64,000 nt of DNA from the NCBI RefSeq assembly GCF_900113005.1, contig NZ_FONW01000002.1, positions 682,001-746,000 of the forward strand, given 5' to 3'. Origin of the DNA: Sunxiuqinia elliptica (lineage in GTDB: Bacteria > Bacteroidota > Bacteroidia > Bacteroidales > Prolixibacteraceae). Positions 54,167-63,891 of this stretch are shown in pieces. The notes under the pieces were generated by a model. It was given only the letters and a program-made list of their open reading frames with translations, did no database searches and had not been told where the DNA came from. Position 1 is the first letter of the stretch; each line of letters starts with the position of its first letter. The position numbers were made by a program, and so were the translations under genes.

Positions 54167-54259
54167 CTCATATCTGCTATTGTTATGGAATGAAAATATT
54201 TTAGTTCAAAATGCTCATCTTCAGGATTGTAGAGTGTGTGTGCGTAAATGTAAGAAAGA

Positions 54260-54315
54260 TGTAACTCTTAACTTGAATTGTGTAATGCTTTTGGGGTAAG
54301 CAAAAGATAACTTTA
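54260..54315 (+). promoter_or_regulatory. Shared-operator promoter, copy 1
   Basis: TGTAACTCTTA at 54260, TGTAA at 54281 (21 bp on) and the -7-like TAACTTTA at 54308 (27 bp further) have the same spacing as at 55034 and 57738. The -7 box is 32 bases before the ATG at 54347. Confidence 0.65.
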
Positions 54316-54346
54316 TGTATTGATTATTCATTTAATACACAATTCA

Positions 54347-54808
54347 ATGAAAAAAGTAATTTTTCCCATGATCATGGCAGGCATAATGGTAAGTTTGGTT
54401 TTTATGTCATTTGGACAGGAAGCGAATAAAAAGGCCATAAAAGCCAGAGTTAATTTACAAGACGACCAAACTGACACTACTACCCACAAGATGGAAATGA
54501 TGAAAGTTCATCTTGATTTCATTTCTGAATTCCAGAATTTCAAGAAAAAGGCTGAATTGAAATTTGCGAACAATGAGAAGTGTATTGCAGATTTTAAGGA
54601 GAACCAGACTAAACTCAAAAAGATGGATGATGCTTGTAAGGAAAAGATTTCCAAATTAGAACAAAGGAACAATAAGCTGAAGAATATGCTGACAAATTAC
54701 AAAGATGCTGGAGCTTATGAGTGGAAATCGTTTAAGAACTTATTCAATTATGATATGGAAGAGCTTGAGGTAGCATTGGAAGAGCTTGCTCCTTTCGAAG
54801 AAAAGTAG
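54347..54808 (+). CDS. Secreted coiled-coil protein of unknown function
   Basis: The ATG at 54347 (MKKVIFPMIMAGIMVSLVF) gives a signal peptide with likely cleavage after SFGQ, and 153 residues in all. The mature part is Lys/Glu-rich and helical, with a coiled-coil stretch (about 60-130) containing LKKMDDACKEKISKLEQRN. Two cysteines in the mature part (NEKCIADF and DDACKEK) could form a disulfide. No family is recognised. It has its own promoter, of the type shared with the genes at 55154 and 57898. Confidence 0.7.
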   Translation: MKKVIFPMIMAGIMVSLVFMSFGQEANKKAIKARVNLQDDQTDTTTHKMEMMKVHLDFISEFQNFKKKAELKFANNEKCIADFKENQTKLKKMDDACKEKISKLEQRNNKLKNMLTNYKDAGAYEWKSFKNLFNYDMEELEVALEELAPFEEK

Positions 54809-55033
54809 TTAATAGGTCTGTTATATTTTGTTAGGCTAATTGTTAATATAGAAACTTCGACCTAATGTTTGAATCTAAAAGTCGATGAAACGAGGACAAA
54901 GCTTTTTAATTCATTTTATTACTAGCAGGAGTTTAGATTTCAGGAAAGAGCTGAATTAAGCTGATTCATTAGTTCAAATGGAGCGAGCTATCGTTGTATG
55001 ATGATGTTGTTGACAGTGGAAAAATGTGAATCA
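54809..55033. other. Gap between two small secreted-protein genes
   Basis: No gene, terminator or repeat is clear here. The promoter of the next gene follows at 55034. Confidence 0.4.
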
Positions 55034-55089
55034 TGTAACTCTTATTCAGAACTATGTAACAGATATCAGTTTGTCGTAGATTATCTTTG
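55034..55089 (+). promoter_or_regulatory. Shared-operator promoter, copy 2
   Basis: TGTAACTCTTA at 55034, TGTAAC at 55055 (21 bp on) and the -7 box TATCTTTG at 55082 (27 bp further). The upstream base run AAAATGTGAATCAT is also similar to that of copy 3. Confidence 0.7.
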
Positions 55090-55153
55090 CTTGTATCAAT
55101 TTTGAATTGCAGAATTTTAAATTGAATAAGATTATTAACAACTTAAAAAGAAA

Positions 55154-55564
55154 ATGATACTCATAGGTCTTTTAGTAGTTCTTCTTTTTTTTCCATCTAA
55201 TTTATCTGCTAAAAGGATCAATTTTAATTTTTCAACAATTGTTCCTACGGTAACAGGCTATGTGGAGGTTAAGGGTGGAAGTAACAGGAACCACTACATT
55301 AAAATTAAAATAAGTAATTTGGATAGAATTGAAAAGATGGAATGCTCCGAATTAACCTATGTGCTTTGGATGGAAACAGATCAGGACGAAACTGAGAACT
55401 TGGGGCAACTAGTCAGTACCCCCGTCCTTTTCTCAAGTAAGTTACAGGTTACAGTAGAGACTGTGTCTTCTTATCAACCTGTAAAAGTATTTATAACAAC
55501 TGAGTCTGAGGTCAACGTTCAATATCCAGGACAACAGGTTGTACTAACAACAGATAGATTTTAG
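55154..55564 (+). CDS. Small secreted beta-rich protein of unknown function
   Basis: A signal peptide (about 1-19, cleaved near LSAK) precedes 117 residues of alternating hydrophobic pattern, consistent with a small beta-sandwich. Segments such as TGYVEVKGGSNRNHYIKIKI and QPVKVFITTES suggest an adhesive or matrix-type fold, but no family is recognised. It has an independent promoter of the shared type and is followed by an 81-base gap to the next small membrane protein. Confidence 0.65.
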   Translation: MILIGLLVVLLFFPSNLSAKRINFNFSTIVPTVTGYVEVKGGSNRNHYIKIKISNLDRIEKMECSELTYVLWMETDQDETENLGQLVSTPVLFSSKLQVTVETVSSYQPVKVFITTESEVNVQYPGQQVVLTTDRF

Positions 55565-55644
55565 AATGAAGTGTTGTCATTGTTGATTTGATTAACCGAT
55601 TGACAATCAAATTCATTTTTTGGAGTCAATGAAAAGTAAAAGTC

Positions 55645-55809
55645 ATGAAAAATTCACCTTACATTATTGCAGGATTACTCGTTCTTCTGTGGGCTATTGT
55701 GACCTTAGGATTTCATTCCTTTAGGTATATTGATATTCTTTTACCTATAGCTGGATTCATTGTGCTTCTTCGGATTTTGTTTCACAGTGATGCTTTGAAA
55801 AAACGCTGA
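55645..55809 (+). CDS. 54-residue membrane protein, lmo0937-like
   Basis: The ATG at 55645 opens MKNSPYIIAGLLVLLWAIVT, and a second hydrophobic segment (YIDILLPIAGFIVLLRILF) follows before a basic end (KKR). Two short helices with a tight turn match small lmo0937-type stress membrane proteins. It lies 80 bp after the secreted protein gene on the same strand and may share its transcript. Confidence 0.65.
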   Translation: MKNSPYIIAGLLVLLWAIVTLGFHSFRYIDILLPIAGFIVLLRILFHSDALKKR

Positions 55810-56038
55810 TGGAGAAGCTATTTTGATATTAATCGGTAATAGCTTTATTTGATACTAAGATGAGATCAAAATAATTGAGAGCACATTATCAGAAGATTAG
55901 ACGAGGGGAGCTTTTATAGCCAATGTTGATCTTACTCTTATTGAAATTTGGATTTTACTCTTGTATAAGTTGTCAATGCTGAGTAGAATGCTGAAATACG
56001 CAGGAACCAAAATTAAACAAAAATAAAACGGAGTTCGG

Positions 56039-56515
56039 ATGACAACTAAAGCAAAACAGGTATTGATTGCTCTTGATTATGATCCAAGTGCACAGAAAGT
56101 AGCAGATAAGGGATTTTTGTTTGCCAAAACAATGAAGGCAAGAGTTACCTTACTTCATGTAATTGCTAATCCGTCGCATTATACTTCAATTGGACGAGTT
56201 ACGATCTTGGGATTTTCCGGGCACTTAGATACAAGCAAAAAAGTAGTTGAAGTAGATCTTGAACCGGATGAAATATCTAGCCAATTTCTTGATAAAACAA
56301 AACGATATTTGGGTGATGATAGGATTCAAACCCAAACAAAAGAAGGCGATTTTGCTGAATGCATATTAACTGTAGCAAAAAGTATTCATGCTGATGTTAT
56401 TGTTATGGGGTCTCATAGTCGTAAGTGGTTTGAAAACACGGCAATGGGAAGTGTTACTGAGAGAGTATTGTTATATACAACGATACCAGTGTTGATTATT
56501 CCTACAAAAAAATAA
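56039..56515 (+). CDS. Universal stress protein
   Basis: The 158-residue single UspA domain starts with a VLIALDYDPSAQKVADKGF strand-helix. It carries the ATP-binding motif GSHSRKWFENTAMGS (about 123-137), fitting G-x2-G-x9-G-S/T with serine at the second glycine. It is therefore probably the ATP-binding type. Such proteins help survival in starvation and oxidative stress. The upstream ACGGAG eight bases before the start could be a ribosome site. The release-factor-like gene follows by 64 bp. Confidence 0.92.
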   Translation: MTTKAKQVLIALDYDPSAQKVADKGFLFAKTMKARVTLLHVIANPSHYTSIGRVTILGFSGHLDTSKKVVEVDLEPDEISSQFLDKTKRYLGDDRIQTQTKEGDFAECILTVAKSIHADVIVMGSHSRKWFENTAMGSVTERVLLYTTIPVLIIPTKK

Positions 56516-56579
56516 ATCTTGATTTAGATAGCATAAATAGTAGGTTTTATCTATCGCAAAACGGCTAAATTTTAAGAAA

Positions 56580-56981
56580 ATGGAAATGAAATCATTAAAA
56601 CAATTAGGAGTTTGGATGGATCATTCAAAGGCCAACATCATGGAATATTCAAATGAGGAAGTTATATCAATTTCATTAAAGTTAACTCCTGCCTTTTCGG
56701 AACAGGTCCAAAATTTGAAAATGAATGAGAGTCTAATACACAACAAGGAACAGAATAAGCAAAACGACTTTTACAGTAAGTTAGGAGATATTATAAATGA
56801 TTATAACGAAGTTCTTTTGTTTGGACCAACGAATGCAAAAAGTGAATTATTCAATAGGTTAAAAGATGACTTGCAATTTAAAAAGATAAAATTTGAAATC
56901 AGGGTGACTGATAAATTGACCGAAAATCAACAAAGGGCTTTTGTGAAAGACTTTTTTCGAGAACGAGAAACAAGCAATTGA
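56580..56981 (+). CDS. Release-factor-like (baeRF/eRF1_3-like) small protein
   Basis: The 133 residues include LGVWMDHSKANIMEY near the start and NEVLLFGPTNAKSELFNRL followed by TENQQRAFVKDFF. The FGPxxAKxEL pattern is the recognisable core of the third domain of archaeo-eukaryotic release factors, which bacteria have in baeRF proteins linked to stress and ribosome rescue. It lacks the peptide-release GGQ domain. The call is by eye. It lies beside a universal stress protein, probably on its transcript. Confidence 0.65.
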   Translation: MEMKSLKQLGVWMDHSKANIMEYSNEEVISISLKLTPAFSEQVQNLKMNESLIHNKEQNKQNDFYSKLGDIINDYNEVLLFGPTNAKSELFNRLKDDLQFKKIKFEIRVTDKLTENQQRAFVKDFFRERETSN

Positions 56982-57087
56982 TACTTGAAATGAGTAGTTG
57001 AAACAGGTTCTGAAAATATTAATCTGGTTCTTGTTTTCTTAACGTCATGTTAAAAGTGTGTTGTATACAAATGTATAGATTAAAAAT

Positions 57088-57639
57088 ATGAACTATAAAC
57101 AACTTAATTCATCGATAAGAGATGATCTAAGGCAAAAGGCCGAAAAGCAGGTGAATGAAAAGCATCTACAAATAGTTAAGCCCAATATGAGTTCCGAGGA
57201 GAAGAAGCTGTTACGTGAAGTCCAAATATTACAAATTATTTTAGAGATGCAAAATGAAGAATTACAACAGACCAATGAAGTTGTAGAAAAGGCCTTGAAA
57301 AAATACACAATGTTGTTTGATTTTGCGCCAATTGGCTATTTTATCCTTGATACTGAAGGTTTAATCTGTGATTTAAATTTCACAGGTGCTGAAATGTTAG
57401 GTGAGAAACGTTTCAGCTTTTTAAAGACTGACTTTAAACTGTTTATTTCAAAAGAATCACATACCATCTTTTCTAGGTTCTTTGAGCGAATATTTTGTGA
57501 TGCTGAAAAAGTATCCTGTAAAATAACTCTCGGCTATAACGATCGATTAGCACGTCAGGTCTATCTGGAAGGGCTTGTTATCGAGAATGAACAGGAATGC
57601 TTATTGTCCGTTATTGATATTTCACATTTTAAGAATTGA
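57088..57639 (+). CDS. Orphan PAS-domain protein without kinase
   Basis: The first 70 residues are charged and helical, ending in a coiled coil (LREVQILQIILEMQNEELQQ). A PAS domain follows (about 72-180): YTMLFDFAPIGYFILDTEG, LNFTGAEMLGEKRF, and VIDISHFKN at the very end. It closely resembles residues 20-180 of the histidine kinase at 62067 (YDFAPTSYFILNKEG, LNFSGASML). The kinase part is missing and no remnant is seen downstream. It may be a freestanding sensor that pairs with that kinase or another partner. Confidence 0.82.
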   Translation: MNYKQLNSSIRDDLRQKAEKQVNEKHLQIVKPNMSSEEKKLLREVQILQIILEMQNEELQQTNEVVEKALKKYTMLFDFAPIGYFILDTEGLICDLNFTGAEMLGEKRFSFLKTDFKLFISKESHTIFSRFFERIFCDAEKVSCKITLGYNDRLARQVYLEGLVIENEQECLLSVIDISHFKN

Positions 57640-57737
57640 TATTTAGGAGTAAACTACACCGATTATCTATTATAACTCACAAAGAATAACGGATCATTAA
57701 GAATAACAATATTTTATCATCTAAAATGTGTGAATCA

Positions 57738-57793
57738 TATAATTCTTTTTAAAAGTTCTGTAAGAAAGAGTTAAACGATAGGTGTTAATTTTA
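57738..57793 (+). promoter_or_regulatory. Shared-operator promoter, copy 3
   Basis: TATAATTCTTT at 57738 (diverged first box), TGTAA at 57759 (21 bp on) and TAATTTTA at 57786 (27 bp further) repeat the geometry of the other two copies. The -7 box is 112 bases before the ATG at 57898. Confidence 0.55.
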
Positions 57794-57897: not shown

Positions 57898-58140
57898 ATG
57901 ATAACGAGTACTTTAAATAAACAAGAAGCAATAACTGATTTAAATTCAATGATTTTAAAGATGACCATGGTCATCAGTGAGTACTATCCTGAGTTAGCTG
58001 GATTTTTAGAGGAAATGCCTGACACAATTTCTGATAACGCTGACTTAGAGGTAACGATTGAGCAACTGGAAAGCTATTTTGAATCGTTGAGTTCGCTTTT
58101 GACCAAATATCTCCTGGAGCATCCGATAAGTTCCAGATAA
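57898..58140 (+). CDS. Small helical protein of unknown function
   Basis: The ATG at 57898 (MITSTLNKQEAITDLN) gives 80 residues. The frame is open 24 codons further up (57826), a possible longer form. The protein is acidic and helical, with ILKMTMVISEYYPELAGFLEEMPDTI as its central part. This recalls small Bacteroidota orphan proteins with a YPEL..LEEMP pattern, whose role is unknown. Its promoter resembles those at 54260 and 55034. Confidence 0.6.
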   Translation: MITSTLNKQEAITDLNSMILKMTMVISEYYPELAGFLEEMPDTISDNADLEVTIEQLESYFESLSSLLTKYLLEHPISSR

Positions 58141-62066: not shown

Positions 62067-63380
62067 TCAAGCTTTTATTGTTCCTTTAATATTTTGAATG
62101 ACAGTTTTATAGGGAATGGTGAAATGAAACGAAGCTCCTTTACCTTCCTCACTTTCAACACAAATCTTACCACCTAATAATTCTACATAAGCTTTTGATA
62201 TAGATAAACCTAAGCCAGATCCTTCATAGTTCCAGCTGTGTTTAGGGCTGTATTTTCTGAACCTTTCAAAAATCGTTTCTGCCAGTTCATTGTTAATTCC
62301 AGAACCCGTATCTGTCACATAGAATTCCAGAAATGCGCCTTTCTTGACATAGCCGAACTTGATCCCTCCTTTTTCAGTAAACTTGATGGCATTTTTGACC
62401 AAGTTGAATAGAATCGCGTCGAGTTTATTTTGATCGGTGTTGATAATACCTGCTTTGTCGGGTAAGCTGTTGTGCAAAGAAAGTTGAATGCCTTTCTTGT
62501 CGGCTTCCGGTTTGAAGAAAGTGTAAACAAAGTTGAGTTGGTCATTTATATTGGTTTTAGAAATAGAAATTTCCATTTGTCCCGCTTCTATTTTTGAAAT
62601 ATTAATTACATTATTGATTATTGACATTAGGTGATTTCCACTCTGTTCAATGATATCGATGTACTTTTGCCCCAATTCATTTTGAGTCATTATTTTCTTC
62701 AGAAGTTCTGTAAATCCCAGGATACCATTCATTGGTGTCCTGATCTCGTGGCTCATATTAGCAAGGAAGGCTGATTTTAGATAGTCGTTTTCTTCAGCCT
62801 TGTTTTTAGCTTTGACTAGTTCCAGTTCTACCTTCTTGGGGAGGGTGATGTCCAGGGCATTTACCAGATATTGTTCTCCATCTTCAACAACATTACCTGA
62901 AAGGTGCAGGTACCTGGGGGTGTTTTCATTTGTGATCATAGCAACTTCACAACCTTTTTGGGTCTCGCCTTCAAATAATTTGTGTAGAAAACGGTTAAAG
63001 ATTGACTTTGAGTGATGCACAAGGAATAATTCAAAAGGGTAGCCTTTCAGCTCAAAGCGAGACTTGTTTAGCATGCTAGCTCCGCTAAAGTTTAATGAAA
63101 TGATTTTTCCCTCTTTATTAAGAATAAAATAGCTCGTTGGGGCAAAATCATATAACTTAGCATATCGGTCTCTAAGTCTCAGTGCCTTAGTAACTGCTAA
63201 TACTAATTTCTTATTTTGGAGTTCCAACTCAAGCAGACGAAGCTTTAATTTCTTATTGTGCTTTTCTATATCTTCTCGAAGATTATGCGAGCTCGGTTTA
63301 AGTGTTTTCTTTGATGTTAACTCTTCTGTCTTTTGACAAAGTAATTTGACATCCGTTTGCTTATGAAGAGTTTTCATCAT
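62067..63380 (-). CDS. Cytoplasmic PAS sensor histidine kinase
   Basis: A helical, coiled-coil N-terminus (about 1-70) leads to a PAS domain (about 72-180). The dimerisation domain follows, with the phospho-acceptor His211 in FLANMSHEIRTPMNG. The ATPase domain has LFNLVKNAIKFTEKGG, VTDTGSGI and YEGSGLGLSISKAYV. There is no membrane segment, so the PAS domain probably senses a cytoplasmic signal. No receiver domain or response regulator is adjacent. The PAS part is paralogous to the orphan protein at 57088. Confidence 0.92.
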   Translation of the reverse strand: MMKTLHKQTDVKLLCQKTEELTSKKTLKPSSHNLREDIEKHNKKLKLRLLELELQNKKLVLAVTKALRLRDRYAKLYDFAPTSYFILNKEGKIISLNFSGASMLNKSRFELKGYPFELFLVHHSKSIFNRFLHKLFEGETQKGCEVAMITNENTPRYLHLSGNVVEDGEQYLVNALDITLPKKVELELVKAKNKAEENDYLKSAFLANMSHEIRTPMNGILGFTELLKKIMTQNELGQKYIDIIEQSGNHLMSIINNVINISKIEAGQMEISISKTNINDQLNFVYTFFKPEADKKGIQLSLHNSLPDKAGIINTDQNKLDAILFNLVKNAIKFTEKGGIKFGYVKKGAFLEFYVTDTGSGINNELAETIFERFRKYSPKHSWNYEGSGLGLSISKAYVELLGGKICVESEEGKGASFHFTIPYKTVIQNIKGTIKA

Positions 63381-63612: not shown

Positions 63613-63735
63613 TTATATTTTTCCGATTTCACTCTTCTTTTGTTGTTTGATCTGCTTTGCAAGTCTTTTCTCTTTTAAAGTCCTAGCTGGTGCTTTCTTA
63701 TTTGATTTTCCTTCTTTTGTTTTCGATTTTGACAT
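63613..63735 (-). CDS. 40-residue lysine-rich protein
   Basis: The frame starts at an ATG (complement of 63733-63735) and encodes MSKSKTKEGKSNKKAPARTL, then KEKRLAKQIKQQKK and an end in EIGKI. About one third of the residues are lysine. The composition and the TLKEKRLAK motif resemble small basic proteins common in Bacteroidota. The overlapping plus-strand frame is Phe/Leu-rich, as expected of an antisense shadow. It lies upstream of the histidine kinase on the same strand. Confidence 0.6.
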   Translation of the reverse strand: MSKSKTKEGKSNKKAPARTLKEKRLAKQIKQQKKSEIGKI

Positions 63736-63891
63736 AACTTTCACTTATTTTTTTTTGATTCTTCTATATTTCGACTTTCTCAATTTTCGTAATTGGTTCA
63801 ATAAAAGTACCTCAATACCTGGTGCGAAGTATTATACAATTGAGGATATAAGTTACATCATTCTCACATTAAAAGAATTTCTTATGAAGCC

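Follow-up and report, generated by a model that had tools for sequence, protein, structure and literature searches.

Class-II activation by AraC/XylS proteins is exemplified by Escherichia coli AraC at araI1-I2, where two direct half-sites lie 21 bp apart with the proximal one over the -35/-33 element and the protein has a double helix-turn-helix (HTH) domain. Two further described systems are related to the subject of this study: the heavy-metal-associated (HMA) domains of Atx1, CopZ and CopA, with their beta-alpha-beta-beta-alpha-beta fold and MxCxxC loop, and the general stress regulons of SigB, RpoS and EcfG, whose cargo includes CsbD, Dps-like, Usp, YtxH and BON proteins. Likenesses to all three are found in a series of operator-promoters of Sunxiuqinia elliptica (Bacteroidota), four of which lie in a stretch of 64,000 nucleotides of contig NZ_FONW01000002.1 (positions 682,001 to 746,000; the window, numbered from its first letter). 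These are, in all likelihood, class-II activator promoters of an AraC-family regulon with an HMA-like sensor-regulator, for which binding, activation, signal and physiological role are predicted from sequence. Unlike E. coli AraC, the candidate regulator carries an HMA-like domain of about 70 residues in place of the usual N-terminal domain, its promoters have an extra AATGTGTG element and a Bacteroidota -7 box, and the operator is often fused to the regulator stop codon. Unlike Atx1, CopZ and CopA, the HMA-like domain, which shares their predicted fold and, in part of the family, their loop, is fused to a DNA-binding domain and has Ser for the first Cys in 93 of 145 regulator genes. Finally, unlike SigB, RpoS and EcfG, the proposed activator would act on housekeeping promoters, of which this genome has five, in one island, among the sites listed.

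Soil, sea and gut are all home to Bacteroidota, one of the major phyla, for whose general stress response we know of no master regulator; a precise operator and promoter architecture together with a candidate regulator would make this question testable. An initial annotation of the window had taken the boxes for an undescribed regulon. In agreement with it, open-access literature searches on Bacteroidota stress regulons, on CsbD/Usp/Dps islands and on AraC with heavy-metal-associated domains gave nothing relevant by title, most subscription papers being outside their scope.

All nine box positions given for the three promoters of the initial annotation (54260/54281/54308, 55034/55055/55082 and 57738/57759/57786) are exact. 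The first box of the third copy has indeed diverged (TATAA instead of TGTAA), and the AAAATGTG(TG)AATCAT run common to copies 2 and 3 is a real third element, kept in relatives as AATGTGTGAAT. The observation of three box sets is thus confirmed, and it was understated: a fourth copy had been overlooked on the minus strand, with one mismatch to the short pattern (match 63857-63803), exact spacing, a recognisable upstream element and an open reading frame (ORF) of 40 residues behind it. A fifth operator lies beyond the window end, at the gene of the candidate regulator. The five operators and this gene are the following:

Operator-promoter 1, 54247..54315, plus strand: upstream element 54247-54257, half-sites 54255-54269 and 54276-54290, -7 box 54308-54315 (covariance model E 9.5e-13; 52.6 bits)
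Operator-promoter 2, 55021..55089, plus strand: half-sites 55029-55043 and 55050-55064, -7 box 55082-55089 (E 1.8e-12; 50.7 bits)
Operator-promoter 3, 57725..57793, plus strand: half-sites 57733-57747 and 57754-57768, -7 box 57786-57793 (E 2.2e-9; 41.8 bits)
Operator-promoter 4, 63870-63802, minus strand: boxes at 63857, 63836 and 63809 (E 2.9e-12; 50.7 bits)
Fifth operator, C15:747924-747996, about 2 kb beyond the window end: located at the regulator gene (38.4 bits with the own genome left out of training)
Candidate regulator gene, C15:747986-748546 (L071:2986-3546), minus strand, about 2 kb beyond the window end: protein of 186 residues

The bit scores of the four window copies come from a matrix trained without own-genome sites, and with this matrix no other place in the window exceeds -8.5, the score of the runner-up. 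At E<=0.1, the covariance model found five sites in this genome among the matches listed, namely the four window copies and the fifth operator, and the predicted own-genome regulon is a single island of roughly 12 kb. The short pattern with up to two mismatches matches six times in the window against 0.55 expected, a number reached in 0 of 100 shuffles; two of the six matches (9458 and 52354) are weak and fall outside the motif. The genome-wide scan with the short pattern, suggested in the initial annotation, was weak in this genome (five matches with up to one mismatch versus three for the backward pattern), and it was the full 76-column motif that decided the matter in favour of the operators.

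This full motif was derived from near-identical copies clustered in a genome of the same family (G024), a longer pattern having remained mostly at control level in 61 genomes. A sequence-only covariance model, in which gaps are allowed, was built from 44 sites, and a matrix with fixed spacing from 42 of these 44 rows, two rows with a one-base gap being omitted; five own-genome rows were also omitted for leave-out scoring, which left 37 rows. Three scan matches were removed from the site list by hand (window 29650 on the minus strand, L058 5474 and L063 1037), and one site (L071 2922-2997) was put into the model for lying beside the regulator, so that this one linkage is circular. The 238 distinct sites comprise four in the window, 47 in L053-L072, 152 in a set of 80 named loci and 35 in L290-L301, training sites included. 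The 80 named loci belong to another collection, outside training, and are centred on the regulator with stretches of up to 6 kb on each side.

In these 80 loci, the matrix scan gave 152 sites above 10 bits, and the reversed loci and their dinucleotide-shuffled versions gave none; with the threshold lowered to 8 bits, the numbers were 155, 0 and 1, respectively. None of the 152 sites is identical to a training row or alike at 65 or more of 76 positions, and a single named locus (L205) has a 60-mer in common with the training loci. An ORF starts 5-400 nt after the -7 box at 126 of the 152 sites (median 50 nt, quartiles 40 and 95 nt), and only five sites have their centre inside an ORF of at least 80 residues. 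The comparison with coding and shuffled background that the initial annotation had called for favours a pattern of upstream regions. The control element occurs across Bacteroidota, and the regulon is far larger in some relatives than in this genome, at least 38 motif matches being found in G024. As read from the DNA itself, the motif, its spacing, its placement at promoters and its linkage to regulator genes (see below) are established.

Regarding its architecture, the profile of 43 distinct sites from the relatives' islands is AATGTGTG-AATGATGTAACTCTT-N6-AATTGTGTAACACTT-N17-YANCTTTG, the first two blocks being contiguous. It contains two direct half-sites of 15 bp, AATGATGTAACTCTT and AATTGTGTAACACTT, which are 21 bp apart (the stretch from position -5 to 9 recurs at this distance, from 16 to 30), and a -7 box YANCTTTG located 27 bp after the second box, without a -33 TTTG; conserved DNA extends 61 bp upstream of the -7 box. 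TTTG starts at positions 20-28, the place expected for the -33 element, in 0 of the 238 sites, the matrix itself wanting TGTAAC there. Among the 152 sites outside training, the second box is found at +21 with four of five letters in 140, and NANNTTT at exactly +48 in 117; among all 238, a TGTAA-like box lies at +21 in 226 and the -7 box at +48 in 187 and at +47 in 25 more, counts which overstate the rigidity because the matrix favours these spacings and letters. Most stress-type sites have the AATGTGTG element, and the copper-type sites that were checked, in the own genome, G043 and G049, lack it. The layout is that of class II, with direct repeats about 21 bp apart and the proximal one over the -35/-33 element. 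The initial annotation had proposed an activator that replaces the -33 contact, from two direct repeats two helical turns apart with the proximal repeat at the -33 place, and this proposal fits, since the second box lies at +21 and TTTG is never found at positions 20-28.

In the relatives' islands, the gene directly before a site is repeatedly one whose product has about 186 residues and an AraC HTH at its C-terminus. LytTR, OmpR-type and CRP half-sites had been considered first and were dropped as this HMA-like/AraC gene kept recurring there. In the own genome, the last codons and stop of the regulator (AAT GTG TGA) are at the same time the upstream element of the fifth site, so that the operator overlaps the stop codon. 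At least one site at E<=0.1 was found in 72 of the 80 named regulator loci. By class, TGTAA begins at exactly +7, counted from the first base of the regulator stop codon, in 24 loci, a site lies near the stop in five, just upstream of the regulator gene in 13 and elsewhere in 30, and eight have no site in the stretch. In a set of 145 regulator genes, chosen for an alignment of at least about 140 residues, a frame of 151-259 residues and a distinct sequence, the 250 nt after the stop contain a core site in 59 cases, including 42 at exactly +7, at a threshold passed by 3 of 2,090,114 positions in reversed loci. Furthermore, among 395 genomes of the phylum, the regulator (E<=1e-30) is present in 54 of the 59 motif genomes listed versus 120 of the 336 others (Fisher p 1.5e-16, a value that ignores phylogeny and comes from lists compared by hand), and a more sensitive profile recovered it in G071, G190 and G294, three of the five motif genomes that had seemed to lack it. 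Control by one of the nearby orphan kinases or stress factors, as suggested in the initial annotation, is not supported; the evidence points instead to the HMA-like/AraC-type protein whose gene follows shortly after the end of the window. Strong sites were also seen in L290 (G040), L291 (G058), L294 (G252) and L295 (G449), in which no HMA-like/AraC gene was found.

The full-length own regulator matches HTH_18 (E 2.6e-16) and HTH_AraC (E 2.7e-11), that is, the double HTH of AraC/XylS proteins, and the best matches among solved structures are AraC-family DNA-binding domains. The predicted structure of an Ancylomarina homologue (mean pLDDT 89) consists of an AraC domain and of an N-terminal beta-alpha-beta-beta-alpha-beta domain of about 70 residues, whose nearest solved structures are mostly copper chaperones or copper-ATPase domains (TTHA1718, Atx1, CopZ and CopA). 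In the metal loop, the first Cys is kept in 47 of the 145 regulator genes, besides the 93 with Ser, and the second Cys is nearly invariant. In the tree, which is unrooted and whose bootstrap had not converged, the Ser-for-Cys group stands on one side of a branch (99/81), and one change is needed.

According to the proposed mechanism, the HMA-like/AraC protein, with a predicted ferredoxin-like domain of metallochaperone type at its N-terminus and the double HTH at its C-terminus, would bind the two half-sites as two head-to-tail monomers, the proximal half-site would fill the place of the missing -33 element so that the activator recruits housekeeping RNA polymerase, and this polymerase would melt the DNA at YANCTTTG. 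In this genome, the regulator would turn on the island of about 12 kb with its genes for Usp, PAS-kinase, RelA/SpoT-like, glycosyltransferase, radical-SAM and small secreted proteins.

This genome also contains a second, more distant copy of the regulator:

Copper-type paralogue, L302:7030-7581 (region to 9927): HMA-like/AraC gene with a CPRC loop

Twelve nt after the first base of its stop codon lies TATAA-21-TGTAAC-27-GATCTTTG, without the AATGTGTG element, and the gene behind this operator codes for a protein of 742 residues in which E1-E2 ATPase (E 3.5e-56) and HMA (E 4e-13) domains are recognised. In L252, a protein with these two domains likewise stands behind a comparable arrangement. 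The copper-neighbour label given over the 145 genes comes from a loose motif search, with a Pfam check in L302 and L252 only. Because the own-genome paralogue and L252 show comparable arrangements, the regulator family appears to carry its operator layout along, and one role of the family is probably copper efflux, the paralogue with the intact CxxC loop being predicted to control the copper-ATPase gene through the same layout. Given this apparent control of a copper-ATPase gene by the CxxC-loop paralogue, the signal sensed by the family is probably a metal or a thiol; in the many members with Ser for the first Cys, the signal would have to differ. The family looks like an instance in which activators resembling metal sensors serve a broader regulon and the regulator gene bears the operator at its end. 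In another genome, G049, which is incomplete and in which the regulator was not found, two sites without AATGTGTG (L292:804 and 10034) were seen in what by eye is an apparent copper-handling island.

Several results weigh against this AraC-family reading. No core site follows the stop in 86 of the 145 regulator genes, and among the 80 named loci the 30 with sites elsewhere have them only away from the regulator gene and eight have none in the stretch. The regulator was not detected, even by the sensitive profile, in the site-bearing genomes G252 and G449, nor was it detected in the site-bearing nearer relatives G040 and G058 or in G049 (79% complete); conversely, G012, G025 and G029 have the regulator and only weak sites among those listed. 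The match of the N-terminal fold is modest (best E 2.8e-3, TM about 0.6, with one designed protein in the first five), the full-length stress-type proteins of L071 and L194 have no match to Pfam HMA (PF00403) at E<=0.1, and searches of Pfam and NCBIfam gave no name for the N-terminal domain. As PF00403 is absent in the stress type and stays below the cut-off of 24.8 in the copper-type paralogue (E 0.073, 13.9 bits), the domain is termed HMA-like and not HMA. In addition, many of the targets are uncharacterised proteins, with 40 singletons among the 129 target ORFs, and it is the identity of the targets that suggests the stress role.

A different DNA-binding protein could read the repeats, for instance a LytTR-type response regulator answering to one of the PAS kinases, in which case the HMA-like/AraC genes would be mere members of the regulon. 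Direct repeats spaced by about 21 bp are bound by LytTR regulators as well, 10-23 LytTR genes (PF04397) are present in each of the eight genomes searched, PAS kinases belong to the regulon, and in four genomes, or five with the incomplete one, sites occur although no HMA-like/AraC gene was detected; in G040, G058, G252 and G449, the site may be read by another regulator. In G024, a LytTR gene (C60:1543-1836) and a site (C60:258-329) are about 1.2 kb apart, but this pair is the only case within 5 kb when the LytTR genes of the eight genomes are compared by hand with the sites listed, and there is no LytTR gene within 160 kb of the own-genome island. The stop-codon site, moreover, drives the gene after the regulator, so that the regulator is not the target of that site, and its register is fixed in 42 of the 145 genes; the copper-type paralogue has the same layout before a copper-ATPase gene. 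We therefore consider a LytTR-type or other reader unlikely as the general explanation.

An alternative sigma factor that recognises the boxes at an activator-independent promoter is a still weaker candidate. A strictly spaced composite promoter in front of many stress genes does resemble the SigB and RpoS regulons, but the -7 box is of the housekeeping TAnnTTTG type and the 61 bp conserved upstream form a direct repeat, unlike a sigma site. The alternative-sigma motifs SM4-SM6 described in the main text of the Flavobacterium psychrophilum start-site study (PMC9723704) also differ (-24/-12, TAnnTTGY and CGT-type), and this main text mentions no AraC, TGTAA or direct repeat. A sigma factor thus appears very improbable. 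An insertion trace or a chance pattern without function, which the exact short pattern hardly exceeding its backward control in this genome might suggest, is scarcely credible in view of the 152 sites against none in both controls, their promoter-like placement and their phylum-wide conservation.

The genes located behind the window operators, which under the AraC-family reading would be the targets of the HMA-like regulator, are the following:

Target 1, 54347..54808, plus strand: secreted-looking protein of 153 aa, no Pfam family at E 0.001
Target 2, 55154..55564, plus strand: secreted-looking protein of 136 aa; similar proteins, by eye, behind the site in L060, L066 and L068
Universal stress protein (Usp, PF00582), 56039..56515, plus strand
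Target 3, 57898..58140, plus strand: protein of 80 aa, no NCBIfam family; its longer reading of 104 aa has no Pfam match
Target 4, 63613..63735, minus strand: basic protein of 40 aa by eye, MSKSKTKEGK...
PAS histidine kinase, 62067-63380: downstream of target 4

Four homologues of target 1 were found in 60 relatives, with a site directly upstream in G030 and G014 and about 1.8 kb upstream in G038; no site was found near the homologue in G029. Target 2 may head an operon that would include 55645-55809, the Usp gene (56039-56515), 56580-56981 and a PAS gene (57088-57639), with gaps of 80, 229, 64 and 106 nt. Usp genes directly behind a site are found in L291 (G058) and, as judged by eye, in L055 (G024).

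In relatives, the genes directly behind sites code for CsbD (PF05532), Dps-like, Usp, OmpA glycine-zipper, PAS kinase and release-factor-like (baeRF) proteins and, by eye, for a cation ATPase and an MlaE-type permease. Further targets are BON, YtxH and ferritin/Dps-like proteins. Clustering of the 126 first ORFs behind the named sites with three window targets gave a cupin (20), the regulator itself (15), ice-binding/Ig-like proteins (12) and CsbD-like proteins (8) as the largest groups, in counts that are biased by the centring of the named loci on the regulator; of these groups, each non-regulator one was represented by a single member in a Pfam search, in which the CsbD-like representative had no match. 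A small cupin (L194:6648-7004 and 19 clustered genes), the largest first-gene group, often stands directly after the regulator gene.

As judged from its predicted members, the target content resembles a general stress regulon. We tentatively suggest, as an idea that could well prove wrong, that this might be a general-stress system of Bacteroidota in which copper-efflux and stress AraC activators are branches of one family: the stress branches would bear a portable 21-bp-repeat operator where the gene of each regulator ends, and would have gained AATGTGTG, partly lost the metal loop and spread to dozens of stress promoters across the phylum, in the role held elsewhere by SigB, RpoS or EcfG.

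Two minor features of the promoters were also seen. Directly past the -7 box, some carry GTGAAA...TTCA, for example L056:19160 (-), L063:1058 (-) and L068:1760 (-); GTGAAA follows the -7 box at 22 of 238 sites versus 4 of 238 in a control stretch, and this sequence, possibly a second operator, was excluded from the operator definition. In addition, some divergent genes have back-to-back operators with first boxes 32-45 bp apart, as in L056:19160 (-)/19192 (+), L061:2054 (-)/2098 (+) and L062:5554 (-)/5599 (+).

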